A stretch of DNA of 64,000 nt from the NCBI GenBank assembly GCA_937916515.1, contig CALFSX010000278.1:33611-97610 (forward strand), given 5' to 3'. This document shows positions 13,694 to 61,695 of the stretch, piece after piece. Source of the DNA: an uncultured Planctomycetaceae bacterium (lineage in GTDB: Bacteria > Planctomycetota > Planctomycetia > Planctomycetales > Planctomycetaceae). The position numbers were made by a program, and so were the translations under genes. Each line of letters starts with the position of its first letter. Position 1 is the first letter of the stretch. The notes under the pieces are model-generated. The model was not told the DNA's origin. It was given only the letters and a program-made list of their open reading frames with translations, and searched no databases.

Positions 13694-13885
13694 TGACAAG
13701 GGCTTCGTCCTTGACCCCGTGGCGTGGTATGCGGAAAGACGTGGTACGTTCGAATTGCCGAACCGATGCGCTGTCGCTGCGATAAACTTGCGGGCATTGT
13801 GCTCGCAACATTTTAAGCAAGAATTCAACGACGGCTTCGCCCGGCCGTGAAGAGTTTTCATGCGGAAAAACACGGGTTAAACAGT
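13694..13885 (+). repeat. Dispersed modular repeat, copy A
   Basis: It begins TGACAAGGGCTTCGTCCTTG, runs through the GGCGTGG...ACGTTCGAAT...CCG core, and ends near TTTTAAGCAAGAATTC. It is followed by a third segment (AACGACGGCTTCGCCCGGCCGTG in part, ending CACGGGTTAAAC) that is shared with copy C at 42834. It lies between the ECF sigma gene and the zinc-ribbon gene, so it fills most of a 338-base intergenic stretch. Open frames across it on both strands are by-products. Confidence 0.8.
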
Positions 13886-13952
13886 AAAATTCAACGGTTG
13901 CGGTTGAAAGCTCTGCTGTCGCAAATTGCGATGCTGAATTATCAGGTAATGT

Positions 13953-14909
13953 TTATTCCGGAGCTGCTGAACCGTCTCCGCCAGACGCCCCGGGCTTACG
14001 CTTTCGACCTCGCCGACGACGTTTGCGTTTTTCCCCACTTGCGGGCCCCGCTTGTGGCCCCGTGGAATCGCCTGGTTTTGCGCTGTGATCAGCAGCAGAC
14101 ACCTGAACGACGGGCTTTGCGGAAGGCGTTTCGCCGGACTGATTTTCGGTTCTGGCAGTCGTTGCCGGGGTTTTGATATCAGCAGCTTCTCCGCTGCGAT
14201 TGCCCCCTTTGCGAGAACGACGGCGGCGACGGCCCTTGCGATGTTCGGTTGATGGTTCACCGTCAGCGGAAGTTGACGAACCAACCTGGTTGCCGGAATC
14301 GCCAACGTCCTGTCCAATCGACGCAGCTTCATCTTTACCAGAAGTCTGATTCGACGGGCTTTTGTTGGTCCTGCGAGATCGATCGGGCTTCGAGCGGTCT
14401 GGCCTTGAACGGTCCGACTTTGATTCGCTGGATCGCTGCCGAGATCCCGGTGCTGGCTTTTCGCCGGATGATTGCAGTAACGGCGATGATTCTATGCCGA
14501 TACCAAACTCGGCCCACTCGTCTTCTTCGGCCCCTGTTTCCGGTCCAGTCGCTGGCGAAGTATCATCCTCAGGAGCCGCTTCGGCTCGCAAATAGCCAGT
14601 ACCGCGAAACGGCTTCTTTTCTTTCGGTTCGACATATTCTGAAACCGGAGTAAACCCTTCCTTTGCAGGAAGCTCTTCCACCAACTCGGCTTCTGTGGGT
14701 GTCGTGTACTCGTCGGTTTGGTAGGTAATAAATCGTGAGATATCAACCGGCGGCGGCGGCTCTTCAACAATCGCCATAAAGCATGGAGGATCGCTGCAGC
14801 GGCACGTGCGTGAAGCGACGGCTCCGCGAGTTCTCACGGTGCGAGAACACTTGGCGCACTTCCAAACGCGGAAGATCCCGAGTTCTAATTGAAGGATGGG
14901 GCCCTTAAT
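13953..14909 (-). CDS. Zinc-ribbon protein with acidic middle and Arg/Lys-rich tail; probable AUU start
   Basis: The first conventional start in this frame is a GTG at 14837, but that would cut through a Cys cluster. Reading further upstream gives KGPILQLELGIFRVWKCAKC and then Cys36, Cys38 and Cys43, a probable zinc ribbon (C18, C21 plus C36/C38/C43). No ATG, GTG or TTG exists between this and the in-frame TGA upstream. An ATT at 14907-14909 has GGAG at 8-nt spacing, so an AUU start giving 318 residues is proposed. The middle is acidic and low in complexity. The C-terminal third has two basic blocks (GRRRRRSRKGG and KRKRRRRGRKRKPG), suggesting nucleic-acid binding. Function is unknown. Confidence 0.6.
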   Translation of the reverse strand: MKGPILQLELGIFRVWKCAKCSRTVRTRGAVASRTCRCSDPPCFMAIVEEPPPPVDISRFITYQTDEYTTPTEAELVEELPAKEGFTPVSEYVEPKEKKPFRGTGYLRAEAAPEDDTSPATGPETGAEEDEWAEFGIGIESSPLLQSSGEKPAPGSRQRSSESKSDRSRPDRSKPDRSRRTNKSPSNQTSGKDEAASIGQDVGDSGNQVGSSTSADGEPSTEHRKGRRRRRSRKGGNRSGEAADIKTPATTARTENQSGETPSAKPVVQVSAADHSAKPGDSTGPQAGPASGEKRKRRRRGRKRKPGASGGDGSAAPE

Positions 14910-14957
14910 GGCAAATTCTCCGGCTTTCAGGCGTTTCGCAGCTGCTTGGTTTCACTG

Positions 14958-15198
14958 TTGTTAGATTCTTACTGCAGGGAACATGTTCACGTTGAGTCAA
15001 GTTTTCTGAGCGACAGCGGAGCGTTTCCGAGCGGCAGCTCGAATGGTCTGAGGCACAGCCTCGTTAGATTCTTACTGAAAAGATTGCGTGCACGATGCGA
15101 GGATATTTATCGTAGCGACAACGGAGCGGCTCGGCGATTCAAACGTACCACGTCTTTCCGCATACCACTCCACTGGGTTAAGGGCGAAGCCCTTGTTA
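14958..15198 (-). repeat. Dispersed modular repeat, copy B (modules 1 + 2)
   Basis: On the minus strand it starts TAACAAGGGCTTCGCCCTTA at 15198 and continues through the core CCGCTCCGTTGTCGCTACG to AGTAAGAATCTAACGAGGC. Module 2 follows directly (GAGCTGCCGCTCGGAAACGC; CGCTCAGAAAACTTGACTCA), ending in a second TAAGAATCTAAC near 14958. Copy F at 61467 has the same two-module order. The 484-base gap it lies in contains no other recognisable feature. Confidence 0.82.
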
Positions 15199-15393
15199 CG
15201 GCAAATTGTCGCAACCAGAATCAGCGTTTCCAGGCAAAACCGATCCAAACACGAAACGAGCGGCACTTCGCACTGAATTCAGATTGTCGCCCTGAAACCG
15301 CTATCCTGCAACCGAGCTTGCAATTTCGCACTCAGAGAACCTTGGTTTTGCCTGCCTATTGCGAAAAATCAAAGGCAATTCCGCAGAGGACCG

Positions 15394-18300
15394 CTATTGA
15401 TCTTTAAGCGAAACCTGCGGCACATCATTCTCAACCGGAACGGAAGTTATTGTCGCAGACGTCTGATACGTCGCAGATATGCTGCCTTCAACGGCAATCA
15501 GCACTCCATCTGCAGCGATATTGGTCAGGATTGACGTCGCCCCGGACGGCCAGCGAATGGTCAGCTTTTCCACGTTTGCTGTGTCGCCGAAACCAAAGTG
15601 TAACCGACGCTGATTGCTGGCCTGATATCCGTCACCTGCGGAGACCTGTTTCCAGACTACGTTGCCACTAATCTCAGCTTCCACCGTTGCTCCGCAGGCA
15701 TCGCGAGCAGTTTGTCGGGCATGCAACTGAACGTCCAGCCAGTGGCCGTATTCTTTAGTGGTGTTCGAAACCAGCATTGTGGGAGAAGCGATGTTGGACA
15801 CCACAAAATCTGTTCGACCGTCCTGATTCCAGTCAACAGTCGCCAGCGAACGTCCCAATGCATTCCGTTGAAACGGTTCACCAAGCTGCTTTGGGTTTAG
15901 CTGCTGGAAGTGCGTTCGATGGCTGCCGTCAAAAAACTGCAAAGGCATTTTGTACTGCCCATTGTCGTCACGAAAGTCAGCCACATGACCGTTGGCCACC
16001 ACGATATCCAGAACTCCACGATTGGCTGCGTCCAAAAACTGAGTTCCCCATCCAACATACTGCAGCCCGGAACTTCGAAGCCCTGCCGTTGCAACCGCAT
16101 CCTGAAAGAAACCACCTTCCTGTTGCAGGTAGAGACAATTGGCTTCACCTTCAAAATTTGTAACAAACAAATCCAGGTGTCGATTGCCATCCAGGTCGGC
16201 AGCCGCCACTCCCATGGCCGCCGTTGGATCACCCAGCATGTTCACCGCCAGGCCACGTTCAGCAGCGATGTCCTGATACACATCAGAATCAACAACCGGA
16301 TGAAGCAGGAAATTGGGAACCTGGTCGTTGGCGATAAACAAAACCGGCCTGGGATCGCCGTTCGAAAACATCGCAACAATCCCAAGTCCTTTCGCCAGAT
16401 CCTTTGGGGCAGCATCCACGACTCGCCGAAATGTGCCATCCGCCTGTGACAACCAGACATGATCTTCAGCGCCTGAAAAATCGCGAACCGAACAACGATT
16501 TCGGCCACATTCCACCTTAAAGACATTCTCCCCCGACAGATAGTTGACGTCGTAAATGTCTGGATTGCCGTCGCCATTCAGGTCCAGAATCAGACAGCTG
16601 GATGTCCATGCCGCTTCTGTCAGTCCGCACTGCTGAGCCACATCATCAAACGTGCCGTCTCCATTGTTGATCAGCAATTGATTAGCTCCAATGCAGGCGA
16701 CGTAGATATCCGGAAAGCCATCGTCATTGAAGTCACCAACGGAACACCCCTGCCCATAGCCGTCGTCTTTGAGCATAGCAGCATCGGCGACGGCGAACCC
16801 CTGTTGTGCTGAACGGTTTCGGTACAGCACGTCATAGTATTTTTCCACAGCAGCGGGGACGCTCTGCCCCTTGGCCCAGGGCTCACCCTGAGTCAGAAAA
16901 ATGTCCGGCTGCAGATCGCCGTCAAAGTCGACAATCCCCACGCCGCCTCCGGTGGATTCAAAGATCCGGACGTCTCGAGCAAGTGGATCAGCACTTTGGT
17001 AATAGGTGAAGTCAATGCCCGCATCCACAGCGGAATCAGTAAAGCTGATCCCTGCAGCATCCAGTGCAAGTTTTGGCGTTGATGCAGAGCGTTCCAGTAG
17101 CGTGTCGATGCCAGGCCAATCTGCCAGGTCGAACAGTGCAGCGATATTAATCGAGGCGAGTTTGTGCGTGGAATCCCCAGTCCCAGCCTCGTTTGCCCCT
17201 TTTTCAGCTCTGTCAATCCATGCCGACGGCCCAAAACGATCTTTGGCCAGGTTCGACCACGCCTCCGCTTCCTGCTTTCTGCCAATGTCGTTTAGCAGCG
17301 AAATTAATTCCGCAAAGCTTTCGGCCTGTTGCCCCTGAGAGATCAATACACGTTCCATCACCTCAATACATCTTTTCAAATCATTACAACGCTGCACGCA
17401 CAAATCTGCGTTCATGTGATTCAGACTGGTCAACACCTGCCCCAGCTGAAACATTGAACGGCGATCATGGGGAGCATCCTGCACGGCTTTCCAAAAACAA
17501 CGAGCGGCAACTTGCGGGGCTTCCATTTTTCGAGCCCACAAGCCCTGCACATATTGCACGCCAGCAGAATCCTTAACGCCTTCCGGCAAATCACGACACC
17601 ATTGTTGAAATGCGATGGAATCCGAGTTCAGCAGCAGTTCGCCAAGTAGCGCATGAGCGTCTGCCCAATCCGGGCACTTCGCGACTACTCGCTTCAAACC
17701 TGCCTGAGCAGCAGCAGGGTCGTTTCTGCTTAGGGCAGACTTTGCCTGAAACATCCAAACGTACGGATCGTCAGACAACGACGAAGAACACTTCGGAAAG
17801 TTCGTAACGTTGCCATATGGCCGTTCTGGTTCCATCAGTGATACGAGATCTGGTATCTTGATTCTGTAGGAAGAAAGTATCTGCAGCAAATACGGTCTGG
17901 CCTGCGATGTCAGCCCCGTTGCATTCAACAGGCCAACAAGCCGTTCGCTCACTTCAAATTGATTGCTGTTTAAGGAACTCAGGTACCGCAACTCATCGAT
18001 ACCTTCTTCGTATTTGCAGTTAATCAGAAACAGCTCAGAGCGAGCCTTCGCAATTGAAATAGCAAGTTCGGTACCGTCGCGTGGAACTCGCTTCCAGATT
18101 TCCAGAGCCTCACGAGTATCGCCCATGCCAAAGGCTGCACGCCCCAGAATGAACTGACACTGCTGCCACCTGTCATCGGTTTCCGGAATGTCCTTAACCA
18201 GTTCAGTAGCTTCCGCGTACCGACCATATTCCAAAGCTTCCGTCGCCGCCGCCAGCGTGTCAACGGGCTTGCTGCGTCCGCACCCAGCCATCGCCAGGCA

Positions 18301-18405
18301 GATCAGCAAAAGACATGGTTGCCGCCAGCCGGTTTGTAGACGCGAAGCCGCGTTACTCGGAAGACTTCTTCGAAGTTCCGGTAAGCTTTTCAAACATCTT
18401 TGCAT
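15394..18405 (-). CDS. Lipoprotein with TPR, FG-GAP/VCBS and ASPIC/UnbV domains
   Basis: The protein has 1003 residues. An N-terminal lipoprotein signal (CLLLICLAMAGC, Cys about 42) places it in the envelope. Residues about 45-430 are TPR-like helices (AAATEALEYGRYAEATELVK; AEAWSNLAKDRFG). From about 455 come FG-GAP/VCBS-type blades with Ca-binding loops: DFDGDLQPDIFLTQG, DFNDDGFPDIYVA, DLNGDGNPDIYDVN, DLDGNRHLDLFVTNF and DWNQDGRTDFVVSN, as in CRTAC1-like proteins. The last 110 residues are an ASPIC/UnbV domain (RRLHFGFGDTANVEKLTIRW). Its start lies inside the end of the cytochrome gene (53-nt overlap), so the two are coupled. The substrate or partner is unknown. Confidence 0.88.
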   Translation of the reverse strand: MQRCLKSLPELRRSLPSNAASRLQTGWRQPCLLLICLAMAGCGRSKPVDTLAAATEALEYGRYAEATELVKDIPETDDRWQQCQFILGRAAFGMGDTREALEIWKRVPRDGTELAISIAKARSELFLINCKYEEGIDELRYLSSLNSNQFEVSERLVGLLNATGLTSQARPYLLQILSSYRIKIPDLVSLMEPERPYGNVTNFPKCSSSLSDDPYVWMFQAKSALSRNDPAAAQAGLKRVVAKCPDWADAHALLGELLLNSDSIAFQQWCRDLPEGVKDSAGVQYVQGLWARKMEAPQVAARCFWKAVQDAPHDRRSMFQLGQVLTSLNHMNADLCVQRCNDLKRCIEVMERVLISQGQQAESFAELISLLNDIGRKQEAEAWSNLAKDRFGPSAWIDRAEKGANEAGTGDSTHKLASINIAALFDLADWPGIDTLLERSASTPKLALDAAGISFTDSAVDAGIDFTYYQSADPLARDVRIFESTGGGVGIVDFDGDLQPDIFLTQGEPWAKGQSVPAAVEKYYDVLYRNRSAQQGFAVADAAMLKDDGYGQGCSVGDFNDDGFPDIYVACIGANQLLINNGDGTFDDVAQQCGLTEAAWTSSCLILDLNGDGNPDIYDVNYLSGENVFKVECGRNRCSVRDFSGAEDHVWLSQADGTFRRVVDAAPKDLAKGLGIVAMFSNGDPRPVLFIANDQVPNFLLHPVVDSDVYQDIAAERGLAVNMLGDPTAAMGVAAADLDGNRHLDLFVTNFEGEANCLYLQQEGGFFQDAVATAGLRSSGLQYVGWGTQFLDAANRGVLDIVVANGHVADFRDDNGQYKMPLQFFDGSHRTHFQQLNPKQLGEPFQRNALGRSLATVDWNQDGRTDFVVSNIASPTMLVSNTTKEYGHWLDVQLHARQTARDACGATVEAEISGNVVWKQVSAGDGYQASNQRRLHFGFGDTANVEKLTIRWPSGATSILTNIAADGVLIAVEGSISATYQTSATITSVPVENDVPQVSLKDQ

Positions 18406-20314
18406 GTTGCTGCGCCTTTTCTGTGTCGCCGGTTTCCAGATACGCTTCTGAAAGCCAGCCGTGTGCCAATGCCAGTGACGGATCGATTTTTAAAGCTGCC
18501 TCCGCTGCCTCAATTCCTTTCGGAAATTCACGAAGCTGCCCCATGACATGGGCCATGCGACCGAGATATCGAGAACGCGTTGGGTTAACGGAATGGAGTT
18601 GTTCGTAAGCCTTCCGAGCTTCTTCAAGTTGGCCCGTCTGATGCATCATCGAAGCCATCGCTTCCAGTGCATCTTCGTGCCGGGGCTGAATCTGTAGAAC
18701 AGTCGACCAGGCTCTTGCCGCCATTTGTGGCTGGCCCGCCTGCACCATTGCCTTTCCTAAGGCAAAGATGCAATCAACATCCTGCTGATTCTGTTCGACC
18801 AACGGAATCAGCACCTGAACGGCCTGTTGGGCAAGTTTTGAATCGCCGTTTAAGTAAGCCAATTCCGCTTGAAAAACCCCAAGTGCCCGATTGACTTCGT
18901 CGTCGCTCAGGTTAACGCCGGGCTCATCAAACACAATAATTTCGGGTGCTGCATCCGGATTTTCGGAACGGCCCTGTTGAGGCACTTGCTTCAGAATTCT
19001 GTGATCTGTTTGCGACGCATGAACGTCGGCCGCCCCAAACGTCGGCATGTGACATGCGACACACGAATCCGCACTGCTGATTTTCAAGCGTTCCGTGAGT
19101 GGCTCAGAGCACTCCGTCTTTCCGGTTTCGTGACACTGCAAGCAACGTTGCCGATAAAAAACCGCTCGCTCCGTTTTGGGAGGTCGGCTGTGTGGGTCAT
19201 GGCAGCTGATGCAGGTGAGCTCACCGGAACTCTGTTGATAACAAACGCTGGAATACATTTGCTCAACCTGGCTGACAGCCGCCGCCGTACCACTTTTCAC
19301 GCCTTCTGTTTTGACCAATGTCACCCAAATGTCACTTAGATTCATACCGGGACGAAAACCGTATTCCGACTGTCCGACCTGCAGGACTCGACGACGCCCC
19401 TGCAAGTGACACTGCGTGCAGACGGCATCTCGGCGAGCCGACGAAAGGTGAATGGGGTTCACAATTGGATCTGTTGACGCAATGTCAGGCTTTGCCTGAT
19501 GAAAGTCGATGTGCTCACCACCGGCTCCATGACAACGTTCACAACCAATCGCATGTTCGTGAAACGCCGGTTCTGCAAATCGGTCGTTGTCTGTGGGGTG
19601 AGGATTCGCGCGGCCGGAATGGCACGACAAACAGGCATGCGTGACACGCCGCTCAAAGCGTTCGTTGAACTCAGGCGCATAGCCCGGCGACAACCCCCAT
19701 TTGGGGCCATCCGCATACCAGCTGATCATGGACTGATTCAATCGACCATCGACGTTTGTCAGATACGAACGCCCTCGTTCCCCCGATCCCACCGACAAGT
19801 CGATCGGAATGGCCTGATCGTAGACAAGTTCGCCGTCGCCGGACGTACGGCGTTCGTGGTGAAACACCTTTCCGTCGTGCGATTCAACTTGATACGAAAA
19901 CTCCGGAAGTGTGGTGAATTCCGATGTGCTGAGATCTTCCAGCCCATCACCCTGGCTTGTCGCAAACATCGAATGCGACATTGGGTGAGTCTTATATTCG
20001 TCCGCAATTCCGGAATGGCACGCGTTGCACGCCTGACTGCCGACGAAGTGTTTCGCAAAAGTGGTTGGTGCGACATCGGCTGAAGGTTTGGCTGCATCGG
20101 CTACAGGATCCGGAACAGCGGCAATCTGCTGATCCGCCGACTTCTTTCTGGCGGACGGCCTTACCAGCTTGTTTTCATTTTCTTTGCCGCAACCGATCAG
20201 GAACAACAGCACAAGCACAGTCAAAGTATGCCCGTGAATGATGCAAGGCATAGTGCATGCCTGCCCCGCAGGCAGAGTGCTGAATCGGACTACCTTTGAA
20301 TGTTCGACGTTCAT
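18353..20314 (-). CDS. Seven-haem c-type cytochrome lipoprotein with C-terminal TPRs
   Basis: The protein has 653 residues. The lipoprotein signal TLTVLVLLFLIGC ends near residue 42; an in-frame ATG at 20251 (residue 22) is a credible alternative start because the preceding codons form a small palindrome (TGCCTGC-CCC-GCAGGCA, 20258-20274). Seven CxxCH haem motifs are visible in order: CNACH, CLSCH, CERCH, CTQCH, CISCH, CLQCH, CVACH. The section around them matches the cytochrome c554-like/multihaem family found with TPR domains. Residues about 470-645 form TPRs (FQAELAYLNGDSKLAQQAVQ; AARAWSTVLQIQPRHEDALEA). It lies between two UnbV proteins in one transcription unit. Electron donor and acceptor are unknown. 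Confidence 0.9.
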   Translation of the reverse strand: MNVEHSKVVRFSTLPAGQACTMPCIIHGHTLTVLVLLFLIGCGKENENKLVRPSARKKSADQQIAAVPDPVADAAKPSADVAPTTFAKHFVGSQACNACHSGIADEYKTHPMSHSMFATSQGDGLEDLSTSEFTTLPEFSYQVESHDGKVFHHERRTSGDGELVYDQAIPIDLSVGSGERGRSYLTNVDGRLNQSMISWYADGPKWGLSPGYAPEFNERFERRVTHACLSCHSGRANPHPTDNDRFAEPAFHEHAIGCERCHGAGGEHIDFHQAKPDIASTDPIVNPIHLSSARRDAVCTQCHLQGRRRVLQVGQSEYGFRPGMNLSDIWVTLVKTEGVKSGTAAAVSQVEQMYSSVCYQQSSGELTCISCHDPHSRPPKTERAVFYRQRCLQCHETGKTECSEPLTERLKISSADSCVACHMPTFGAADVHASQTDHRILKQVPQQGRSENPDAAPEIIVFDEPGVNLSDDEVNRALGVFQAELAYLNGDSKLAQQAVQVLIPLVEQNQQDVDCIFALGKAMVQAGQPQMAARAWSTVLQIQPRHEDALEAMASMMHQTGQLEEARKAYEQLHSVNPTRSRYLGRMAHVMGQLREFPKGIEAAEAALKIDPSLALAHGWLSEAYLETGDTEKAQQHAKMFEKLTGTSKKSSE

Positions 20315-20379
20315 TCTTGTCTCTGTTCTGCTGCGTCACTTAAACAAACGACCTAAATCGCCAGTCAGCGGGCTGCTCA

Positions 20380-22149: not shown

Positions 22150-22386
22150 GGCTTTGACAGCTTTCACTTCAGAACGTGTGGATAGTCTAATGGGCAAAGG
22201 CGAATGAGGAGACACAATGCTTGACTTGCAACCAACAAAAGTAAGAGGACGTTTACTAAGGACCGTCAATCGGCTGACAGCACTCAAAAACACGTCGCCG
22301 ATACTGGCGCCCTCGACTGCGTGTTGTCGCATTGTCTAAACAACTTACGCAACAGTGTGCGAATTTGCTGGCCCGTAAATGCAAAA

Positions 22387-22416
22387 ACTCCGCGTCGTAC
22401 TGCTACGACGCGGAGT
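22387..22416 (-). terminator. Rho-independent terminator after the DUF1559 gene
   Basis: Perfect 13-nt arms ACTCCGCGTCGTA (22387-22399) and TACGACGCGGAGT (22404-22416) enclose a 4-nt loop. On the minus strand the stem is followed by TTTTT, as expected for termination of the gene ending at 22452. Confidence 0.88.
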
Positions 22417-22451
22417 ATACTTCATACTTCCATCAACACTTAAGCTTAAGC

Positions 22452-23534
<1,083 letters not shown>

Positions 23535-23673
23535 GACAGTCATCCTCGAAAAAAAGGAACATAAATTCAGCCGAATGGCTGGATGAATTCCAAGCCTTAG
23601 CGGAAGCACAATCAATAGCAAAGTCTCTTGTTTCTTTGACAAATGCTAAAGCTCCGCAAGACCTGTGAAGGGC

Positions 23674-26163: not shown

Positions 26164-26200
26164 AGACGCGTAACGTTAGCCGAATTGCCGTTGCACCAGC

Positions 26201-27460: not shown

Positions 27461-27628
27461 AAAATGATCGTTCGCGGTCCGGTGGCCGTCAACGTTATTG
27501 AGCGTGTTTGTGAAATGAAAGCCCCGCGAAGTGCCCACGAGTTTACGGTACGTTCATAGCGGATTCAAGCTTCGAGTGACTGAGGCAACATTGCAGAAAC
27601 ACGCCGTCGCTGGCTGATGAAGAACGAA

Positions 27629-28239: not shown

Positions 28240-28320
28240 TAAGTTTCCTGACCACTTTCAAAACTGTAACCCCGTTGGAGTCTTTCTCCAAAAATAATGC
28301 GAGCACGGTGCAGGCATGTA

Positions 28321-28386
28321 TTCTGAGCGACAACGGAGCGTTTCCGAGCGGTAGCTCGAATGGGCTGCGGGCCAGCCCGCGTTAAG
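28321..28386 (-). repeat. Dispersed modular repeat, copy G (module 2 only)
   Basis: Read on the minus strand it is AACGCGGGCTGGCCCGCAGC, then CATTCGAGCTACCGCTCGGA and AACGCTCCGTTGTCGCTCAG. It matches module 2 of copies B and F, but the small internal hairpin has a different sequence (GCGGGCTGGCCCGC here, GAGGCxxTGCCTC there), i.e. a compensatory-looking stem. It sits just upstream of the secreted protein gene. Confidence 0.75.
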
Positions 28387-41808: not shown

Positions 41809-41815
41809 CCTGGCA

Positions 41816-42556: not shown

Positions 42557-42833
42557 GACGCTCTCCAGTATCGAATTCCGCAATTCAATGACGCGACGGA
42601 GTCTGCGCGCCGTGATGCAGCATGGCTTCACTTTGAAGAATCGACTGCCGTCACAATCGGCCTGAGCCGTATTTTAAAAATTAAGTAAAGTTTTGCGGCT
42701 GCAACGAATTCGACAGCGAAGTGCAGTGCAGACATCAACCGTTGTATACGGTTGTCACCACCCGAGTTACGTTAAGCGGCAAACCCTGGAACAAGCAGAT
42801 TTTGCCGAACTTGCGAATGTGTCCGGAAATCCC

Positions 42834-43052
42834 TAACAAGGGCTTCGCCCTTGACCTATTGGCGTGGTTGGCTGGAAGACATGGGACGTTCGAATCGCCG
42901 AGACGCTCCGTTGTCGGTACGACCAACACGCGCGCACCGATCGCGCATCATTTTGAGTAAGAATCTGATAATGGCTGTGCCCAACGCCGTGAAAGGTTTT
43001 GCGTTGGACTGTACAGTCGTTTAACCCGTGGCCTTCGACCACGGGTTAAACA
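42834..43052 (+). repeat. Dispersed modular repeat, copy C (modules 1 + 3)
   Basis: It begins TAACAAGGGCTTCGCCCTTG, contains ACGTTCGAATCGCCGAGACG and GCTCCGTTGTCGGTACGACC, and ends the first module with TTTTGAGTAAGAATCTGATA. Then comes the segment shared with copy A, ending in a hairpin around CACGGGTTAAAC. It lies between the FHA gene and the second lipoprotein/DUF1559 pair, the 537-base gap being otherwise empty. Confidence 0.82.
43019..43051. terminator. Strong hairpin, possible terminator
   Basis: Thirteen-nt arms (TTTAACCCGTGG at 43020-43031 with one further pair, and CCACGGGTTAAA at 43039-43050) enclose a 7-nt loop. It lies 42 bases beyond the minus-strand lipoprotein stop and at the end of copy C. 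There is no clear U-run on the minus strand, so termination is uncertain; it may simply be part of the repeat. Confidence 0.4.
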
Positions 43053-43770: not shown

Positions 43771-43860
43771 ATCAGTTCCCAGAGCGACAAAGCAGCGGCT
43801 CCAGCGTCCCACGTTCTTCCGCATGCCACGCCACCGGTTCAAGGGGCGAAGCCCTTGTTA
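43771..43860 (-). repeat. Dispersed modular repeat, copy D, overlapping a stop codon
   Basis: Read on the minus strand it begins TAACAAGGGCTTCGCCCCTT with one extra C relative to other copies, then GGCGTGGCATGCGGAAGAAC, GTGGGACGCTGGAGCCG and TTTGTCGCTCTGGG. Its first three bases (TAA) are the stop codon of the DUF1559 gene, so the repeat begins exactly where that reading frame ends. Confidence 0.78.
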
Positions 43861-44862
43861 GTATTCCCCGACAACTTCGCCACCGCCGATTGAGCCCAGC
43901 GAACGATAGACGTTGATGTCAATGTTTTCGGAGATGAAGCGAACTGAACCATCGGCGAGCGTAAAGTTGGCTCCACCAATGTGATAACTGCCAAAGCTTA
44001 GTTCTGCCAGAACTCCCGGGATGGATGGATCCAGGCGAGAATTGATTTTCGAGAACGCTGAACCAAGACCTTCAGAGTATTCCGTACCGCCAAGGTCACC
44101 CGGAATGCAGTCCCATCCACCGGTTGAGGGTGCACCGAATTGCCAATAGTCCATCCCCTGACCGTCACGCACATACGAGGGATCGGTGTAAGACTCTCCA
44201 ACCATCAAAGTTGACGAAGTACCATCGGTGATGTCGCGGATTCTTGTGCTGCTGCAGCCGAAGAAGATTCCGTCCAGCCCTTTTTGTTGCTCCAAGGCCA
44301 CCTTCGGTGAGTACGCTGCGGGGATTGTGGAAAGGTCATCAGAAATCGCATTCGATCCAGACACGGCTCGATAGCTAACCGGAACGCGCCCGACAATTCC
44401 GTTGTTGTCAATGTGTTCAGGTACGGCCATGCTGGCACAGCGAAACGCTGAAATCAGAGTGCCGCACGCGATTTCATTCGCTGCACCCGAATCCCAGTTG
44501 CCTGGCCCCGATTCCTGGAAGACAAATGTCTGGTACAGATTGGCCTGTTCAATTTGCGGCAGAATCATGGCTGACCAAAGCGTTTCGCGTTCATCAAAAC
44601 CGAACGGGAACGTGCCCACGGTGTCGTGATAGTTGTGCATCGCCAGCCCCAGTTGCTTCATGTTATTTTTGCACTGCGTTCTGCGAGCTGCTTCGCGAGC
44701 CTGTTGAACGGCGGGCAGAAGCAAGGAAATCAAAATGGCGATGATCGCAATCACAACCAATAGTTCGATAAGTGTAAAACCTCGAACCTGTCGACGGTTG
44801 ACGGTGCGTTTCAGTGGACTGAATGCCGTTGCGGAGGAATCAAATTTATGAGCTGTGGTCAT
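43858..44862 (-). CDS. DUF1559 protein with type IV pilin-like N-terminus
   Basis: The protein has 334 residues from the ATG at 44862; an upstream frame adds a non-conserved leader. The prepilin helix [20 protein letters not shown] begins at about residue 27, so this leader is longer than that of the homologue at 22452. The motif [20 protein letters not shown] follows, and the C-terminal [20 protein letters not shown] carries H-x9-DG. The last residues GGGEVVGEY match the NVVGEF end of the other homologue. The stop codon is contributed by repeat copy D. It is presumed a surface or pseudopilin-like protein. Confidence 0.92.
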
Positions 44863-48725: not shown

Positions 48726-48848
48726 CCGCCCCTCAACAACAAACAGACGGCTCTACTCATTCCCTGCGACACAAACACTGGCTGGCCCCGCAACTTCTGC
48801 AAGCGGCCGTCACTTTGCTTATTCATCACCTGCTGAAACCAATATTCC

Positions 48849-51950: not shown

Positions 51951-52079
51951 TCTGCGATCGTTGGTCGCCAGCGATTGACGGAGTGGTTCAACGCAGTGCA
52001 GTGAGTGCCATGAGTGCACTCACTGCAGGCGGTTTACGAGAAACAGCTACCTGAAAAGCACTTGAACAAGTGCCAACCA

Positions 52080-53549: not shown

Positions 53550-53862
53550 AAACGGGTGCCAGAAGGCACTTGAAAATCGAAATTCAGACCGCCTGAATGG
53601 GAAAACTACTCGGTTTTACTATCGCTCGGAAGTGATTCGACTTGCCCGCTGCAGTTTTCTCACGCAATGAAAACCGAATAAATCGTTTAAGTTTGAGGCG
53701 CTTTCGATGTCTGGCAGGTTGTTAAGCGAATCAATTCTCGCGGCCAGCTTCGTGTGCGTTTGTCGTTCAGATTGCTGATTATCGCCGGAAGCAGTCGTCA
53801 ATACGTTCACCTTAGCGTGCACGTTCGGCTGCGACCTGGAGTTGTGAAGCTTCACAGTTGCC

Positions 53863-53996
53863 CAACAAGGGCTTCGCCCTTGACCCAGTGGCGTTGCATG
53901 GGGAATACGTGGAACGCTTGAACCGCCAAGCCGCTCCGTTGTCGCTACGGCCAACATCCGCGCAACGTGCGCGCATCCTCTAAAGTAAGACTCTAA
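53863..53996 (+). repeat. Dispersed modular repeat, copy E (module 1)
   Basis: It starts CAACAAGGGCTTCGCCCTTG, runs through GACCCAGTGGCGTTGCATGG and GCCGCTCCGTTGTCGCTACG, and ends AAGTAAGACTCTAAG. It lies upstream of the radical SAM gene, in the gap after the divergent conserved gene. Confidence 0.82.
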
Positions 53997-54180
53997 GTTG
54001 CGAGTTCCAGGCTCGCAGCGGCAAAAAACAATTCAGACGTGCTTCTTGGTGGGAATTTTGCTGCCGCTGCTCAATAATGGAAGGCAGTGTGAAATTGAGC
54101 CCACTCATTAAACTGCACACGCTGCTGTGAGTCGTTTTTCATGTGATGGCGAAACATCCTCACGCGAAAGCTTCAATTGG

Positions 54181-54202
54181 AACCAGGGGTTTGCCCCTGG
54201 TT
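54181..54202. repeat. Short perfect hairpin upstream of radical SAM gene
   Basis: AACCAGGGG (54181-54189) and CCCCTGGTT (54194-54202) are exact complements with a TTTG loop. It ends 25 bases before the ATG at 54228, in the expected mRNA leader. It may be a small palindromic repeat or a translation-control hairpin. Confidence 0.65.
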
Positions 54203-54227
54203 GGAAAATCTGCTTCAGGAAGTCGAA

Positions 54228-55613: not shown

Positions 55614-55691
55614 TTTCACGCTGCTGAAAGCTGAGCAAAACAGAATCGTGCACACCTACTGGTCGCGATTTTAGATTGGCAAGGTTTACTG

Positions 55692-56012
55692 ATGAGCGAT
55701 CCGGAAAGTACGGAAACGACGCAAACCAAAGTCGGCTGGCCCTGGCAGTTGAAGGCCGGAATCACGCTGCTGGCGTTGTCGAGTCTTTGCGTGGCAATAA
55801 CCGTTGCGATGTTGGCAGACTGCTATTCTGCGGTGGCCGCATCCTCAACCAGCCCCAAACCGTCCGAACTTGCTGAGGGCATTGCCAACGCATTGCGATA
55901 TTCTTTTCCTGCAGCGCCGCTTGCCGTGGCTGGATTGACACTGTTGCTGTCTGGTGTGCTGCGGCACGTTCAAGCAAATCCGACTGCCGCGAATTCCACA
56001 CGGAGAAGCTGA
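55692..56012 (+). CDS. Small two-helix membrane protein
   Basis: The protein has 106 residues with AAGG before the ATG. Two hydrophobic helices are visible (AGITLLALSSLCVAITVAML, about 22-41, and PLAVAGLTLLLSGVLRHV, about 76-93). No family was recognised. It lies 78 bases after the radical SAM gene and its stop is 2 bases before the sulfatase start, so it is likely co-translated with the sulfatase. Confidence 0.65.
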   Translation: MSDPESTETTQTKVGWPWQLKAGITLLALSSLCVAITVAMLADCYSAVAASSTSPKPSELAEGIANALRYSFPAAPLAVAGLTLLLSGVLRHVQANPTAANSTRRS

Positions 56013-56014
56013 AA

Positions 56015-57469
56015 ATGCAGCTGCATCGATTTTTTATTGTTTTGTTTTCTGTGTGGCTGTCTCCGCCTTGTAGCGCGCAGGACGCTGCGCCGGCCCCTCC
56101 ACCGAACATTGTGCTGATTGTCAGCGATGATCAGGGGTACAGGGACCTGGGCTGCATTCGTGGCCACGACATCATCACGCCGCACCTGGACCGTCTGGCT
56201 GAAGAAGGAACTCGGCTGACAAGCTTCTATGTTGCATGGCCAGCGTGTACGCCCAGTCGAGGTGCGTTTTTGACAGGCAGGTACCCGCAACGCAATGGCA
56301 TCTACGACATGATCCGGAATGAAGCTCCGGACTACGGTTATCTTTACCAGCCTGCAGAATACGAAGTGTCGTTTGAACGCATCGGCGGGATGGACGAGCG
56401 AGAAATTCTGCTGCCCGCCGTTTTGAAACCCGCCGGATATCGGTCGGCAATTTTCGGCAAATGGGACCTGGGATCGTTGCACAGATACCTGCCGACGTCT
56501 CGAGGGTTTGATGAATTCTATGGGTTCGTTAACACCGGCATCGACTATTTCACTCACGAACGCTATGGCGTGCCATCCATGTATCGTGACATTAAGCTCA
56601 CAACCGAAGATAAGGGCACGTGCTGCACAACGTTGTTTCGGCGGGAAGCCGTTCGCTTTATTGAACAGAATCGCAAGCAGCCGTTCTTTCTGTATCTGCC
56701 CTTCAATGCGCCTCATAACGCTTCGAACCTGGATCCGAAGATTCGCGGGGGAGCTCAGGCTTCTGAAGAGTTCCTTTCGATGTATCCGGAACTGGCACAG
56801 AAAGCGGAGTTCGTTCAAGGCACCAAATATGGCAAGCCCGCCAGCCAGCCCAATTCGCAGATGCGAACGCTGTCTTACAGAGCTTCCGTAACAGAAATGG
56901 ATGCGGCTATCGGCGAGATCATGACTCTGCTGGATCAGCACAACATTGCCGACAACACGTTAGTCATTTTCTTTTCCGACAACGGCGGCAGTGGTGGAGC
57001 CGACAATGCTCCATTGCGCGGCCGAAAGTCTCAGATGTTTGAAGGCGGAATACGAGTCCCCTGCATTGTTCGCTGGCCGGGACACGTGCCTGCCGGAAAA
57101 GTATCCGATGAATTTCTGACATCGCTGGAAGTACTTCCAACAATCGCAGCAGCAGCCGGAATCCCATTGGATGCCAGCATCACCCTTGATGGCTACAACA
57201 TGCTGCCGACACTTCGCGGCGACGAAGTCTCGCCAAGAAAAAATATGTTTTGGCAACGGCGGGACGAGAAGGCGGCCAGAGTTGGCGATTGGAAGTGGAT
57301 CCAAACATCCAAAGGTGAAAGCCTGTTCAATCTGGCCAGAGACATCGGCGAAAAGCACGATCTGTCAAAGGAAGACCCCGCCAGGACAAAACAACTATCA
57401 ACAGCATTCACGCAATGGAAGCAGGAAATGGATTCCGCAGAACCACGTGGCCCCTTTCGCGATTTTTGA
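56015..57469 (+). CDS. Sulfatase (S1 family, arylsulfatase-like), secreted
   Basis: The protein has 484 residues and a signal peptide ending CSAQDA. Sulfatase motifs are complete: NIVLIVSDDQGYRDLG (metal-binding Asp pair), CTPSR at 78-82 with Cys78 to be turned into formylglycine, TGRYPQRNGI, GKWDLG, a middle HNASNLDP region and FFSDNGGSGG (metal-binding Asp-Asn). The substrate is probably a sulfated polysaccharide or ester; which one cannot be seen. Many planctomycetes hold large sulfatase sets. Its start is 2 bases after the small membrane protein. Confidence 0.92.
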   Translation: MQLHRFFIVLFSVWLSPPCSAQDAAPAPPPNIVLIVSDDQGYRDLGCIRGHDIITPHLDRLAEEGTRLTSFYVAWPACTPSRGAFLTGRYPQRNGIYDMIRNEAPDYGYLYQPAEYEVSFERIGGMDEREILLPAVLKPAGYRSAIFGKWDLGSLHRYLPTSRGFDEFYGFVNTGIDYFTHERYGVPSMYRDIKLTTEDKGTCCTTLFRREAVRFIEQNRKQPFFLYLPFNAPHNASNLDPKIRGGAQASEEFLSMYPELAQKAEFVQGTKYGKPASQPNSQMRTLSYRASVTEMDAAIGEIMTLLDQHNIADNTLVIFFSDNGGSGGADNAPLRGRKSQMFEGGIRVPCIVRWPGHVPAGKVSDEFLTSLEVLPTIAAAAGIPLDASITLDGYNMLPTLRGDEVSPRKNMFWQRRDEKAARVGDWKWIQTSKGESLFNLARDIGEKHDLSKEDPARTKQLSTAFTQWKQEMDSAEPRGPFRDF

Positions 57470-57550
57470 CACGGCAATTTAGCCACGGAGAACAGCAATC
57501 CAGGATTGTTTCCGTGTTTCTTCCGCACTTAGCCTGCATCCTTCGCCAGA

Positions 57551-58990
57551 TCACTTCGCAGCGGAACCGAGCGACTGAATCAGCGTCCCCACGGGCCACA
57601 TCAGAAACGATGCCGCCATGCCGGGAAGCAATTTGAAGACGTCTGCGTCGTAGCCAATCATATTCCAGGCGACTACAGTTCCAACGCCAGCGGCCATCAT
57701 AAGCACAATTGTCAACGACGAAAGGCGCACTCCCAGCAAACGCAGCAGAAGAGCTGGCCCCAGACCTGCGCCAAGTGAGGACCACGCAATCAGCACCAGA
57801 GCAAAAACTCCCTGGCCTGCGAATAGGGCAATGGACAACGCAAGTCCGGCCACGGCAAGCGTCGCAATTTTGGAGGCGACGTAAGAATCTTTCCATTTGG
57901 GATTGATGTCCTGAGTGATGGCTCCTGAACAGACCAGAATCTGTGAATCCGCAGTCGACATCGTTGCGGCGAACAAGCCCGCCAGCGTAAGGCCAATCAA
58001 AACGTCAGGCAGCAATCGAAGAGCCATTTCCGGCATCGCCAATTCCGTTGCCTGCGCTTCGGTAAGCCCAGCGGTCAGTGGGATGTCCAGCAGGTCAGGC
58101 ATGTAAGCTCGTGCGTAAAGTCCGACGGCGATGCTGGCCAAAAAGAAGGGAATGAACCACAGAAAATAGATCAATCGTGCTCTTTGGATTTCATTAACTG
58201 AGCGGATCGCCATAAACCGCACAAGAATGTGCGGCTGGCCGATCACTCCAAATCCGCCGAAGACCATCCCCAGCAGATACATCGAAAATCCAAACTTCAG
58301 GTCGATCGGAAACCACCGTACCAGATCAGCGTCCTGAGCCTTGAGATTGTTCCACACATCCGTCGGCCCACCAACCTCGCGGCTGGCTGCAATCAGCAAT
58401 GTTGCCATCGCAAATACCATCACAAAAGACTGTGCGGCATCCGTCCAGATCGATGCTCGAATCCCGCCCGAAAAGCAATAAACAACGACGATAACTGCAC
58501 CGATAATCGCGCCGACGGCAGGTTCCCATCCGAACAGGGATTGCAAAGCCGTGCTTCCGGCCTTTAGCTGAGCTGCTGCGTAAACGCCAAGAAGCACAAA
58601 GCTCATCAGCCCACCAAGCACAATCACAACTCGCTTTTCACCGTCGTTTGAAGTGCCCAGCAGTGCGGGAACTGTGGCGATGTTCATTCGCTCAGATTCA
58701 CGGCGAACTCTTGGATGAACGAGTATCCAGGCGGCAAAATCGCCGACGACCCAGCCCACCATCATCCAGATTGATTCGATACCGACTCGATAGCTGTACG
58801 CAATCTGACCAATAAACATAAAGCCGCTGTTGTTGGTGGCCACTGCCGACAACGCTGCCAGCCATGGCGGAACGTTGCGTCCGGCTAACAGGTAGTCATC
58901 TGTCGTGCTTTTGCGAGAAAACGATGACGAAACACCGATGACAACAAACACAGCCAGAAAACAGAGAAAGCTGACGACCACAGTTGTCAC
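57551..58990 (-). CDS. Sodium:solute symporter (SSS family)
   Basis: The protein has 479 residues from a GTG at 58990, preceded by AAGGA at 7-nt spacing; a longer frame from 59062 adds a polar leader that crosses the ect promoter region. It has 12-13 membrane helices. Characteristic elements are DDYLLAGRNVPPWLAALSAV near the start, AYSYRVGIESIWMMVGWVVG, and RESERMNIATVPALLG in the first third. The family couples Na+ entry to uptake of proline, betaine, sugars or similar solutes. Its divergent position next to the ectoine genes, sharing one 166-base regulatory region, suggests uptake of a compatible solute. That link is inferred. Confidence 0.87.
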   Translation of the reverse strand: MTTVVVSFLCFLAVFVVIGVSSSFSRKSTTDDYLLAGRNVPPWLAALSAVATNNSGFMFIGQIAYSYRVGIESIWMMVGWVVGDFAAWILVHPRVRRESERMNIATVPALLGTSNDGEKRVVIVLGGLMSFVLLGVYAAAQLKAGSTALQSLFGWEPAVGAIIGAVIVVVYCFSGGIRASIWTDAAQSFVMVFAMATLLIAASREVGGPTDVWNNLKAQDADLVRWFPIDLKFGFSMYLLGMVFGGFGVIGQPHILVRFMAIRSVNEIQRARLIYFLWFIPFFLASIAVGLYARAYMPDLLDIPLTAGLTEAQATELAMPEMALRLLPDVLIGLTLAGLFAATMSTADSQILVCSGAITQDINPKWKDSYVASKIATLAVAGLALSIALFAGQGVFALVLIAWSSLGAGLGPALLLRLLGVRLSSLTIVLMMAAGVGTVVAWNMIGYDADVFKLLPGMAASFLMWPVGTLIQSLGSAAK

Positions 58991-59064
58991 GATAAATTCC
59001 TTGAAAACGCTGCAATTTGAGCTCGGGTTGACGAGCATCGAAGCGGGAGTATAATTGCACAAGC

Positions 59065-59086
59065 ATTAATTGCATATACAATTAAT
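59065..59086. promoter_or_regulatory. Perfect palindrome in the ect/symporter intergenic region, candidate MarR operator
   Basis: ATTAATTG (59065-59072), 6-nt CATATA, then CAATTAAT (59079-59086): a perfect 22-bp dyad. A TAATTGCA word also occurs at 59052-59059 and 59067-59074. A possible ectA promoter overlaps it: TTGCAC (59055-59060), 16 nt, TACAAT (59077-59082). MarR-type regulators bind such AT-rich dyads, and a MarR gene ends this operon. Confidence 0.6.
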
Positions 59087-59156
59087 AGTCACGCACGCAT
59101 CTTGCAACTATCAGTGATTTTTCAGCAAAATTAAAGAATCAGCCCCGTCACGCCAC

Positions 59157-59663
59157 ATGGTTAACGAAAAGAAAACGTGCAAAATACGTTCAGCAACAAT
59201 CAGTGACGCCTCCGGAATCCTGCAGCTGGTACGCGACTCGGGAGTGCTCGACACCAATTCTGCGTACCTCTACCTGCTGTTGTGCCGAGACTTTGCTGAC
59301 ACGTGTCTGGTGGCCTTGCAGGGCGATTCGCTGGTGGGATTCGTCACGGGCTACCGCCTGCCACGCCAGCCTTCCACTCTGTTCGTCTGGCAAATCGGCG
59401 TCGCTTCAAACGCAAAGCGTCAGGGGATTGCATCATCACTGCTTCATCAGTTGGTAGAACGATGCGACCCGGCCACGGTCTCTGCAATTGAAGCAACGAT
59501 TGCACCGTCAAACTCAGCCTCTCGAAGTCTGTTTGAGTGCCTGGCACGCACGCTTGATTCGGCGATCGTAGATCTGCCGAACGAGGGCTTTGTCGAAAGT
59601 GACTTTCCTCCCGGCGACCACGAGGCGGAACCGCGGATTCGAATTGGCCCGATCGCACGATGA
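59157..59663 (+). CDS. ectA: L-2,4-diaminobutyrate N-acetyltransferase (EctA)
   Basis: The protein has 168 residues. It acetylates L-2,4-diaminobutyrate with acetyl-CoA to give N-gamma-acetyl-2,4-diaminobutyrate. The GNAT fold is evident: SATISDASGILQLVRDSGVL with DTNSAYLYLLLCRDFADTC is the characteristic EctA opening, and VWQIGVASNAKRQGIASSLL is the acetyl-CoA motif. The end SEDFPPG-like block (ESDFPPGDHEAEPRIRI in outline) is also standard. It is the first gene of the ectoine operon. Confidence 0.95.
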   Translation: MVNEKKTCKIRSATISDASGILQLVRDSGVLDTNSAYLYLLLCRDFADTCLVALQGDSLVGFVTGYRLPRQPSTLFVWQIGVASNAKRQGIASSLLHQLVERCDPATVSAIEATIAPSNSASRSLFECLARTLDSAIVDLPNEGFVESDFPPGDHEAEPRIRIGPIAR

Positions 59664-59744
59664 TTTGCTGCGAGTAGGCCACAAACAAACACAGCGACTT
59701 TTACTTTACCTCACACAAAGACCACACCACCCAAGGGATATTTG

Positions 59745-61007
59745 ATGGAAATTTTTGAACGACTGGAAAGCAACGTCCGTGGATACTGCCGAAGTTTTCC
59801 CACGGTGTTTGAAACAGCGCATGATGCGATTCTGGTAAATGAAGCCGGCGATGAATACATCGACTTCTTTGCCGGTGCGGGGGCGTTGAACTATGGCCAC
59901 AACAACCCGACTCTTAAGAAAGCCCTGATTGACTATGTGTCCGCTGACGGCGTGCTTCACGGGCTGGATATGTCCACGTCCGCCAAGCGAGCGTTCCTTG
60001 AGACGTTTGAAAAACTGATTCTGCGGCCTCGGCAGATGGACTACAAAATCATGTTTCCAGGGCCGACGGGCACAAACGCTGTGGAAGCTGCGTTAAAGCT
60101 GGCTCGCAAAGTGACGGGGCGCCACAACATTGTTTCCTTCACAAACGGGTTTCATGGAATGACGCTCGGTTCCCTGGCACTCACAGGCAACAGTGGCAAG
60201 CGTGCGGGAGCTGGCGTTCCACTGAACAACGTGACGCACATGCCGTTTTGTGATTACCTGGGAACAGAAACCGATACCATTGCGGCGTTGGAACGCTATC
60301 TGGAAGATTCCAGCAGCGGCATGGATCTGCCAGCCGCGTTTATTCTGGAAACAGTTCAGGCAGAAGGTGGAGTCAACATCGGAACGCGAAGCTGGCTTGA
60401 AGCCCTTGCGACTTTGGCCAAACGTTACAAAGTGCTGCTGATTGTAGACGACATCCAGGTCGGGTGTGGTCGCACAGGGCCATTCTTCAGTTTTGAACCG
60501 TTCAATCTGCAGCCAGACATTATTTGCCTGTCTAAGTCGTTGTCCGGCTTCGGATTGCCAATGGCTTTGACATTGATGAAACCCGAACTGGACATTTTTG
60601 AACCCGGAGAACACAACGGAACATTCCGCGGCCACAATGCAGCCTTCGTAACGGCCACTGCAGCACTGAAAACATTCTGGCAAAACGATTCGCTGACTCG
60701 AAAAGTTAACCGCAATGCGCGGCAGGTTCGCGATGCACTTCTGGACATCGCTGCCGATCACGACGCAGAAGTTCGAGGTCGCGGGATGATTCAGGGGATT
60801 GAGTTTGCTGACCAAACGATTGCTTCACGAATTTCCCAGGAAGCATTTTCAAGGGGGCTCATTATCGAAACAGCGGGCCCGAACGATGAAGTCATCAAGA
60901 CACTTCCTCCGCTCACGATTTCCGATGACGTGTTAACTCGCGGGCTGGAGATTCTTCAACAAAGCACGCTGGCCGCAACGTTCAGTGAACCTGCTGTCGC
61001 CAACTAA
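59745..61007 (+). CDS. ectB: L-2,4-diaminobutyrate transaminase (EctB)
   Basis: The protein has 420 residues from the ATG at 59745 (AGGG 8 bases before; the TTG three bases earlier is unlikely). It moves the amino group of glutamate to aspartate semialdehyde, yielding 2,4-diaminobutyrate. It begins with IFERLESNVRGYCRSFPTVF, typical of EctB. PLP-site features are GPTGTNAVEAALKLAR, the Asp in LLIVDDIQVGCGRTGPFF, and the Schiff-base Lys264 in CLSKSLSGFG. The C-terminal RGRGMIQGIEF also fits. It lies 81 bases after ectA. Confidence 0.96.
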   Translation: MEIFERLESNVRGYCRSFPTVFETAHDAILVNEAGDEYIDFFAGAGALNYGHNNPTLKKALIDYVSADGVLHGLDMSTSAKRAFLETFEKLILRPRQMDYKIMFPGPTGTNAVEAALKLARKVTGRHNIVSFTNGFHGMTLGSLALTGNSGKRAGAGVPLNNVTHMPFCDYLGTETDTIAALERYLEDSSSGMDLPAAFILETVQAEGGVNIGTRSWLEALATLAKRYKVLLIVDDIQVGCGRTGPFFSFEPFNLQPDIICLSKSLSGFGLPMALTLMKPELDIFEPGEHNGTFRGHNAAFVTATAALKTFWQNDSLTRKVNRNARQVRDALLDIAADHDAEVRGRGMIQGIEFADQTIASRISQEAFSRGLIIETAGPNDEVIKTLPPLTISDDVLTRGLEILQQSTLAATFSEPAVAN

Positions 61008-61075
61008 CAGCCAACAGCCTCTGCGACACAATGCTGTTTGTCGCTTGAAAACGTACCGAAACATAGAGTCCACCA

Positions 61076-61459
61076 ATGATCGTCAGAAACCTTCGTGAAA
61101 TCTCAGGAACGGAACGTGAAACGTCTGCCAAAACCTGGACAAGCCGGCGCCTGTTACTGAAAAGTGATGGCATGGGATTTTCATTGCACGACACGATCCT
61201 GTACGCAGGAACGGCGACTGAAATGGAATATCAGAATCATCTTGAAGCAGTGTATTGCATTGAGGGACAAGGAAGATTGAAGGACCTGACCAATGATAAA
61301 GAGTACAGCATTGAACCCGGAACCATGTACGCGCTAAGTCAGAACGAGCGTCATATTCTATTTGCCGACACGCAACTGCGAATGGTGTGTGCCTTTAATC
61401 CGCCAATTGTTGGTTCCGAAACGCACGACGAAAACGGGGTCTATCCTTTGCTTGAATAG
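61076..61459 (+). CDS. ectC: Ectoine synthase (EctC)
   Basis: The protein has 127 residues, the normal length. It cyclises N-gamma-acetyl-diaminobutyrate to ectoine. It is a cupin that opens MIVRNLREISGTERET. Glu57, Tyr85 and His93 are present in the positions reported as iron ligands for a characterised EctC (Glu57, Tyr85, His93). VCAFNPPIVGSETHDENGVY closes the domain. It lies 68 bases after ectB. Repeat copy F begins 7 bases after its stop. Confidence 0.97.
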   Translation: MIVRNLREISGTERETSAKTWTSRRLLLKSDGMGFSLHDTILYAGTATEMEYQNHLEAVYCIEGQGRLKDLTNDKEYSIEPGTMYALSQNERHILFADTQLRMVCAFNPPIVGSETHDENGVYPLLE

Positions 61460-61466
61460 AAGTTTT

Positions 61467-61695
61467 TAACAAGGGCTGCGCCCTTGACCCGGTGGCGTGG
61501 CTGGCTGTAGGACGTGGGACGCTGGAATCGCCGAACCGCTCCGTTGTCGCTACGGTCAACAGGCGTGCAGCATTTTGAATAAGACGCTGACGAGGCGGTG
61601 CCTCAGACCATTTGAGCTGCCGCTCGGAAACGCGACTACGTCGCTCAGAAAACTTGACTCAACGTGAACAAGTTCGCTGCTTTATGAAATCTAAC
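61467..61695 (+). repeat. Dispersed modular repeat, copy F (modules 1 + 2)
   Basis: It begins TAACAAGGGCTGCGCCCTTG, continues through GGCGTGGCTGGCTGTAGGAC and ACCGCTCCGTTGTCGCTACG, then TTTTGAATAAGACGCTGACG. Module 2 follows (AGGCGGTGCCTCAGACCATT; GAGCTGCCGCTCGGAAACGC; TCAGAAAACTTGACTCAACG). Both the order and the ending match copy B. It separates ectC from ectD. Confidence 0.85.

Follow-up and report, generated by a model that had tools for sequence, protein, structure and literature searches.

A dispersed family of multi-hairpin repeats in Planctomycetaceae as a candidate non-autonomous single-strand DNA element

The window analysed here is a stretch of 64,000 nt from an uncultured Planctomycetaceae bacterium (contig CALFSX010000278.1 of assembly GCA_937916515.1, positions 33,611 to 97,610), in which copies of a dispersed, non-coding, multi-hairpin repeat family are found. 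An earlier note on this DNA had placed repeats at eight positions of the window, and all eight carry the family. The copies are built from two modules, module 1 (M1) and module 2 (M2). The features of the window are given below by position and strand, with expect values (E) where they come from profile searches.

2799..2863, + strand: core fragment of M1, with neither head nor tail (nhmmer, C278:36409-36473 on the contig, model positions 39-103, E 2.3e-10)
13693..13826, + strand: M1, full length (profile match, E 1.4e-33)
13830..13852, + strand: hairpin of the 'module 3' of the earlier note, directly 3′ of a TCAAC junction (read from the sequence)
14962..15067, - strand: M2, right extension of a long form (nhmmer, E 7.8e-33)
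15064..15198, - strand: M1, which with 14962-15067 makes the long form M1-M2 (nhmmer, E 1.8e-39)
28274..28385, - strand: variant copy with a GCGGGC-TGG-CCCGC head, an M2-like second hairpin, and an M1-like right hairpin and tail (sequence and nhmmer)
42833..42966, + strand: M1, full length, then a module-3-like hairpin from 42967 (E 8.6e-41)
43777..43861, - strand: M1, 5′ part only (nhmmer, model positions 2-93, E 4.2e-15)
53862..53996, + strand: M1, full length, flanked by CCAA on the left and CTAA on the right (E 3.5e-37)
61466..61588, + strand: M1 of a long form (E 3.5e-32)
61588..61694, + strand: M2 of the long form begun at 61466 (E 4.6e-33)
61695..61832, + strand: repeat H, a different, REPIN-like family, CTGGACAGCG...GCCGCAGGGCGTTAGCCCCGG...CTGTCCAG, joined to the copy at 61466 on its right side (sequence)

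Module 1 is about 133 nt long and has a head hairpin, CAAGGGC-TTC-GCCCTTG, at its left border. Its interior contains a long-range GGCG...CGCC pairing and a nearly invariant core around CGCTCCGTTGTCGCT, and its right side consists of the hairpin GCGCGCACCGTGCGCGC and the tail AGTAAGACTCTAA. Module 2, of about 104 nt, follows the same plan with different stems (GAGGC-NGT-GCCTC and CGAGC-TGCC-GCTCG), the core in common with module 1, a weak right hairpin and the tail AAGAAGTCTAA. Module 1 on its own is the short form of about 133 nt, and M1-M2 is the long form of about 237 nt. The copy at 28.3 kb had been described as module 2 alone, which is incorrect, since its module-2-like 5′ part is joined to a module-1-like right hairpin and tail; its small stem is, as had been claimed, altered yet still pairing (GCGGGC/CCCGC versus GAGGC/GCCTC). 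Forms resembling this variant are also present in congeners (L194, L211). At 13830 and 42967, where a third module had been reported, there is indeed a further junction with a hairpin after it. Besides these two places in the window, this hairpin is seen 3′ of module 1 at the junction in other copies, such as L043 and C214:69103.

Among 108 complete arrays, a number in which some copies appear twice, as part of a locus and of a contig, there are 50 of M1, 48 of M1-M2, four of M2 only, two each of M1-M2-M2 and M1-M2-M1, and one each of M2-M1 and M1-M1-M2. Three of the M2-only arrays are distinct on inspection, and one of these retains remnants of the module 1 right hairpin and tail in front. 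As M2-only arrays are few and one has such remnants, module 2 is mostly a right extension of the long form. In 30 of 71 cases (35.5 expected), a module 1 sequence shares its form with its nearest neighbour; long and short forms are therefore intermixed, as two alternative right ends would predict, and the composite forms do not cluster as clades. This count was used in place of a tree count of 28 form changes, which came without a shuffle control.

The genome to which the window belongs (8.33 Mb in 343 contigs) contains 423 occurrences (201 + 222) of the 22 nt head AACAAGGGCTTCGCCCTTGACC with up to two mismatches, compared with none for a reversed control pattern, which excludes chance. In 785,707 bp from eight contigs, picked because they hold heads or the window and thus not a random sample, the module 1 profile has 81 matches and the module 2 profile 38. 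The density in this genome is roughly one copy per 10-20 kb. Two of its contigs (C302 and C314; L297, L298) are 100 % identical over 15,283 bp; they are an assembly duplicate and not strain variants, therefore the genome-wide copy counts are slightly inflated.

Outside this genome, the near-exact head (up to two mismatches) is absent from all seven congeners searched, whereas 60 copies are present in G012, of the same family but another genus. A covariance model (R1) identified relatives at E ≤0.001 in 20 of 150 family genomes and eight of 58 genera, counts that are minima, since scoring was limited to the top 22 candidates of each genome. The search of the genome and of other planctomycetes proposed in the earlier note has produced further copies. 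Diverged relatives were found by this model in congeners G001-G005. Diverged heads have different stems that still pair, for example GCGGGC/GCCCGC (G108), GCGGC/GCCGC (G001), GAGGGC/GCCCTC (G150), and AAGGGCT-GAAA-AGCCCTT (G156). In G004, four diverged relatives lie in tandem with a period of about 170-175 bp (L214:2427-3088).

Several G012 contigs break within similar copies that bear different flanks. The flanks of 12 copies at contig ends differ, and 11 of the 12 read CCT^AACAAGGG, with ^ marking the border; the border of the other G012 copies is more variable. Because these breaks fall in similar copies with different flanks and mostly this one border, the sequences suggest that the family has been recently active in G012. 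No match was found in plasmid, phage, and viral collections, the viral scan being for exact 23-mers only. Among the matches listed, an exact 23 nt head also occurs in metagenome-assembled genomes of unrelated Clostridia and Defluviitaleaceae (L068, L069, L073, L075, L076), three of which have 11, 5, and 16 near copies of the head, in one case with inverted pairs about 83 bp apart. These may be convergent or transferred hairpin repeats.

The borders of the copies are sharp. They were counted over 117 left and 92 right ends, after duplicate pairs had been merged (163 groups reduced to 128 rows) and with loci L061-L066 left out. The left border reads YCY^AAC, mostly CCTAAC (position -3, C in 75 and T in 27; -2, C in 94; -1, T in 82 and C in 26), and the head hairpin begins two bases beyond. 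The right border is CTAA^, with 82-83 of 92 copies agreeing at each position, after either module 1 or module 2. Beyond the left border there are 0.00-0.12 bits of information at each of 12 positions, and beyond the right border 0.16 bits, then 0.01-0.09. Head-to-tail chaining occurs at the CTAA junction. A 70 % identical paralogous site (C278:32159 versus C153:50801) suggests that AAC belongs to the element, with the left border uncertain by two or three bases. A natural empty site, CTAA^C, is provided by the M1-M2-M2 array at L020, which lies within a repeat H; copies of H without such an interruption, for example C215:70348-70487, align through the junction with 82 % identity. Of the window, only about 45-52 kb could be aligned to the G004 region used, with 71-77 % identity, too diverged for orthologous empty sites to be read between the genes.

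The borders also bear on whether the family is a classical miniature inverted-repeat transposable element (MITE), which a DDE transposase would move with duplication of a 4 bp CTAA target. CTAA is present on both sides in 29 of 82 two-ended arrays, as this would require; however, equal left and right tetranucleotides are found in 30 of these arrays versus 31.0 in shuffles, so the two sides are independent. In the 37 of the 82 arrays in which the left side is not CTAA, the right tetranucleotide matches in one and is CTAA in 26. Target duplication, for which the earlier note had suggested a check, is thus not supported. Likewise, no terminal inverted repeats are seen by inspection, the left end being AACAAGGGC... 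and the reverse complement of the right end TTAGAGTCTTACT.... The one insertion sequence (IS) that ends in the repeat, in G012 (L092, L104), was considered as a parent element and ruled out: its inverted repeat CCAATACCGTTCAATTG also occurs without the head (L067, L071), therefore it is the IS that sits in the repeat. A MITE of this type is accordingly highly improbable. At both loci this IS, which we take to be IS4-like from its end, is inserted at the same position just 3′ of the head hairpin, with differing inner sequence, and it possibly targets the repeats.

Spread could also have come about without transposition, by recombination, gene conversion between repeats and segmental duplication. 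Mosaic copies such as L002, with an M1 head and an M2 tail, are what this would produce, as are tandem copies such as the two module 1 copies lying head to tail at L288:3692-3955 (contig C142), identical at 127 of 131 positions (97 %). However, no shared flanks were seen between the copies compared, and an exact empty site exists, making this explanation very unlikely. Three further tandem module 1 copies, with a period of 134 and a junction altered to CTTTC^AAC, are present at C115:34274-34668 (L122).

The stems of the family are conserved through compensatory changes between genera. Across genera, both-side changes are found at 16 of the 19 pairs of an alignment fitted to the structure. They occur in 74 cells, compared with 12.2 ± 3.2 after shuffling and 12-27 in controls with slid pairs. 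Within the genome, covariation in module 1 does not rise above shuffles, and that in module 2 is largely due to one pair (C-G in 22 and U-A in 16 of 42). The compensatory changes looked for are thus present, and the structural selection proposed in the earlier note holds across genera, while being weak within the genome.

Conserved RNA normally tolerates G-U far more than A-C. Here, G·T and A·C departures number 35 and 43 in the M1 copies, 22 and 26 across genera, and 21 and 22 in M2 without pair 82-94, which is normally U-G (52 and 24 with it). Since G·T does not exceed A·C, nothing points to selection at the RNA level, and the stems are apparently kept by compensatory changes at the DNA level. 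The equality could in part reflect neutral decay after insertion, and it makes a stronger case against a function of each copy as RNA than it does as proof of DNA recognition.

This bears on the alternative that the repeat is a transcribed structured RNA or terminator, duplicated and kept for its function in place. The multi-hairpin structure with its strong cross-genus covariation, the GAAA loops in some relatives and the intergenic position of the copies would suit such an element. Only 13 of 78 copies lie more than half inside an open reading frame (ORF) call, compared with a mean of 66.2 (minimum 54) on random placement, in agreement with the earlier view that the repeats are not genes. 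Copies are often found right after stop codons, in that, of 67 copies with a left-border TAAC, 19 have its TAA as the stop codon of an ORF of 100 codons or more, versus 5.0 % of 2559 control TAAC sites, which were not limited to intergenic positions (p 1e-9). On the other hand, in addition to the G·T and A·C counts, none of 4227 Rfam families matches in the window at gathering score, copies occur in both orientations to genes (25 same and 14 opposite in 39 tandem cases), and the near-exact copies are absent from congeners. An RNA element is therefore quite unlikely, and of the two possibilities left side by side in the earlier note, the mobile non-autonomous element is supported and the RNA element is not.

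Taken as a whole, the family is likely to be a non-autonomous single-strand DNA element, with hairpin ends that a Y1/HUH-type transposase acting in trans would recognise; the probability of this is put at about 0.5. In such a mechanism, the left CCT/CTAA motif would be the target site, while the element itself would be cleaved at the right CTAA. The short form of 133 nt and the long form of 237 nt would then arise from a single left end combined with one or the other of two right ends. Mobility is supported by hundreds of dispersed, sharply bordered copies without shared flanks in those compared, by the fact that seven congeners lack the near-exact head, and by the empty site. None of the observations that the earlier note had listed as speaking against it, namely a lack of further copies, a lack of covariation or flanks matching through segmental duplication, was made.

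Several results weigh against a Y1/HUH-moved single-strand element. The empty site is one case only, with one mismatch beside the junction. When seven copies were folded as whole DNA elements, their energies were only slightly more favourable than those of shuffles (z -0.85 to -2.41). There is no clear orientation bias within contigs, which insertion into the lagging strand would predict, and a guide of the IS608 type is not obvious on the 5′ side of the hairpins. No Y1/HUH enzyme is linked to the repeats, Y1 being common in the family and not tied to the copies. Y1 transposase genes are present in 129 of 150 family genomes, and class-3-like Y1 genes, a label of our own for a Y----Q motif taken from an alignment of four proteins, in 93 of 150. 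Co-occurrence with the repeats is not significant, either for Y1 as a whole (18 of 20 repeat-bearing genomes, p 0.44) or for class-3-like Y1 (16 of 20 versus 77 of 130 other genomes, p 0.059), and repeat-bearing G003 and G091 have no Y1 match. In all, 60 Y1 loci were searched, in which at least four genes are present twice. The repeat model found no copies flanking 30 class-3-like loci; around the 30 others (L061-L066, L147-L170) it found one real copy, near L062, and weak partial matches at L166, L170, and L062.

The genome of the window has six Y1 genes, of which L063 and L066 are class-3-like, and no repeat copy is closer to these six than about 1.4 kb. The copy at this distance (L319:233-373, contig C131) is a full-length module 1 with a degenerate head, and the L062 Y1 gene beside it has one stop; given a density of about one copy per 10 kb, this is no more than chance. 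A reading in which the repeats are tied to TnpB and omega-RNA is not supported, as PF07282 (TnpB) has no match in any of the six genomes searched. At L066 (contig C184), a class-3-like Y1 ORF (1345-1845) is flanked on both sides by repeat H arms (GCCGCAGGGCGTTAGCCCCGG...). Repeat H also trails M1-M2 copies, for example at 61695-61832 of the window, with arms resembling those around L066.

Mobility through an enzyme other than Y1/HUH, such as a tyrosine recombinase of the integron type that works on folded single strands, is unlikely. The border YYYAA^C, with G^TTRRR on the other strand, would be its core site, and it matches the integron core site. Head-to-tail module arrays resemble cassette arrays, and two stretches of the genome (in C142 and C43) score over the cut-off of an integron-integrase model, and such a stretch is present in six of the ten genomes tested. 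Contig C142 (L288) has four module 1 copies in 13.2 kb, one of them cut by the contig end, above the average of about one per 10 kb. However, attC sites pair R′′ and R′ as RYYYAAC...GTTRRRY, whereas both borders of the modules read YYYAAC in one direction without a matching GTTRRRY opposite, therefore no pair of the attC type can fold. Across nine integrase loci, repeat matches are limited to C142, where the nearest copy is 4.6 kb from the integrase (10258-11085), and two weak matches in G004, with none at C43 (L289). As the other eight loci have none or only weak matches, no link to the integrase is read from C142. Hundreds of scattered copies are also not cassette-like.

The preferred single-strand element with a transposase in trans has its closest parallel in the palindrome-associated transposable elements (PATEs) of Haloquadratum. 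PATEs are non-coding elements with divergent copies, no terminal inverted repeats, palindromes near the termini, no target duplication and a conserved terminal oligonucleotide as target, and their palindromes resemble those of IS605-type transposons in the host genome (PMC3119063). The planctomycete repeat likewise lacks terminal inverted repeats and target duplication, is too short to code, has divergent copies and hairpins near both termini (the head at the left border and the right hairpin some 20 nt short of the right one), and has a short fixed terminal motif that is read as the target. It differs in that its head abuts the border, it has two alternative right ends and its host is a bacterium. 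In addition, PF07282 is lacking in the six genomes, and no Y1 element with the ends of the repeat is seen at the Y1 loci read, which cover part of the genome. Taken together with the extragenic high copy number and the chaining, the shared features fit the definition given for PATEs. The repeat appears to work like a PATE but is not classed as one, because the defining link to an IS605-type element in the genome was looked for and not found.

In their hairpin ends, fixed motif, and chaining, the repeats resemble the logic of IS200/IS605 and repetitive extragenic palindrome (REP) systems, including bacterial interspersed mosaic elements (BIMEs), REPINs and the class 3 TnpA_Y1 of Planctomycetes, whose repeats have a CnGA foot (PMC6006769, PMC8266576, PMC3733652). 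Like REPs served by TnpA_REP, the REP-associated tyrosine transposase (RAYT), they are high-copy, extragenic, non-coding hairpins whose 5′ foot bears a tag, in a genome with class-3-like Y1. However, the tag is CTAA/YCYAA, with a YCTAA foot, rather than GTAG/GT[AG]G, CGTC or CnGA, the unit, 133-237 nt long, contains several hairpins and has a right end that is well defined, and the tested Y1 genes have no copies beside them other than the one near L062. BOX, ERIC, and other MITE-like modular repeats of bacteria are short, intergenic, modular, structured, and non-autonomous. The planctomycete repeat shares all of these features but is without terminal inverted repeats and target duplication; the definition of a MITE used in this comparison is that of PMC3733652.

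A more specific proposal, that this is an undescribed single-strand element found throughout Planctomycetaceae, with its own insertion site at the right end, head-to-tail growth, alternative right ends and a dedicated enzyme that is neither a TnpB-linked IS605 nor a GTAG-type RAYT, is put forward tentatively and is rather doubtful at present. Searches of the open-access (PMC) literature on planctomycete REPs, MITEs, and repeats returned no account of the family.

If the repeats are a hairpin-dependent mobile family, this genome would carry roughly one of its copies per 10-20 kb, from a family that did not come up in the literature searches, and the copies would be a large natural data set on how single-strand elements choose their ends and targets. 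It would also pose an orphan-enzyme question, that of which protein moves the family. In many copies the border lies against the stop codon of an adjacent gene or provides it, so that the family also has an effect on how genes are called and where they end in planctomycetes.

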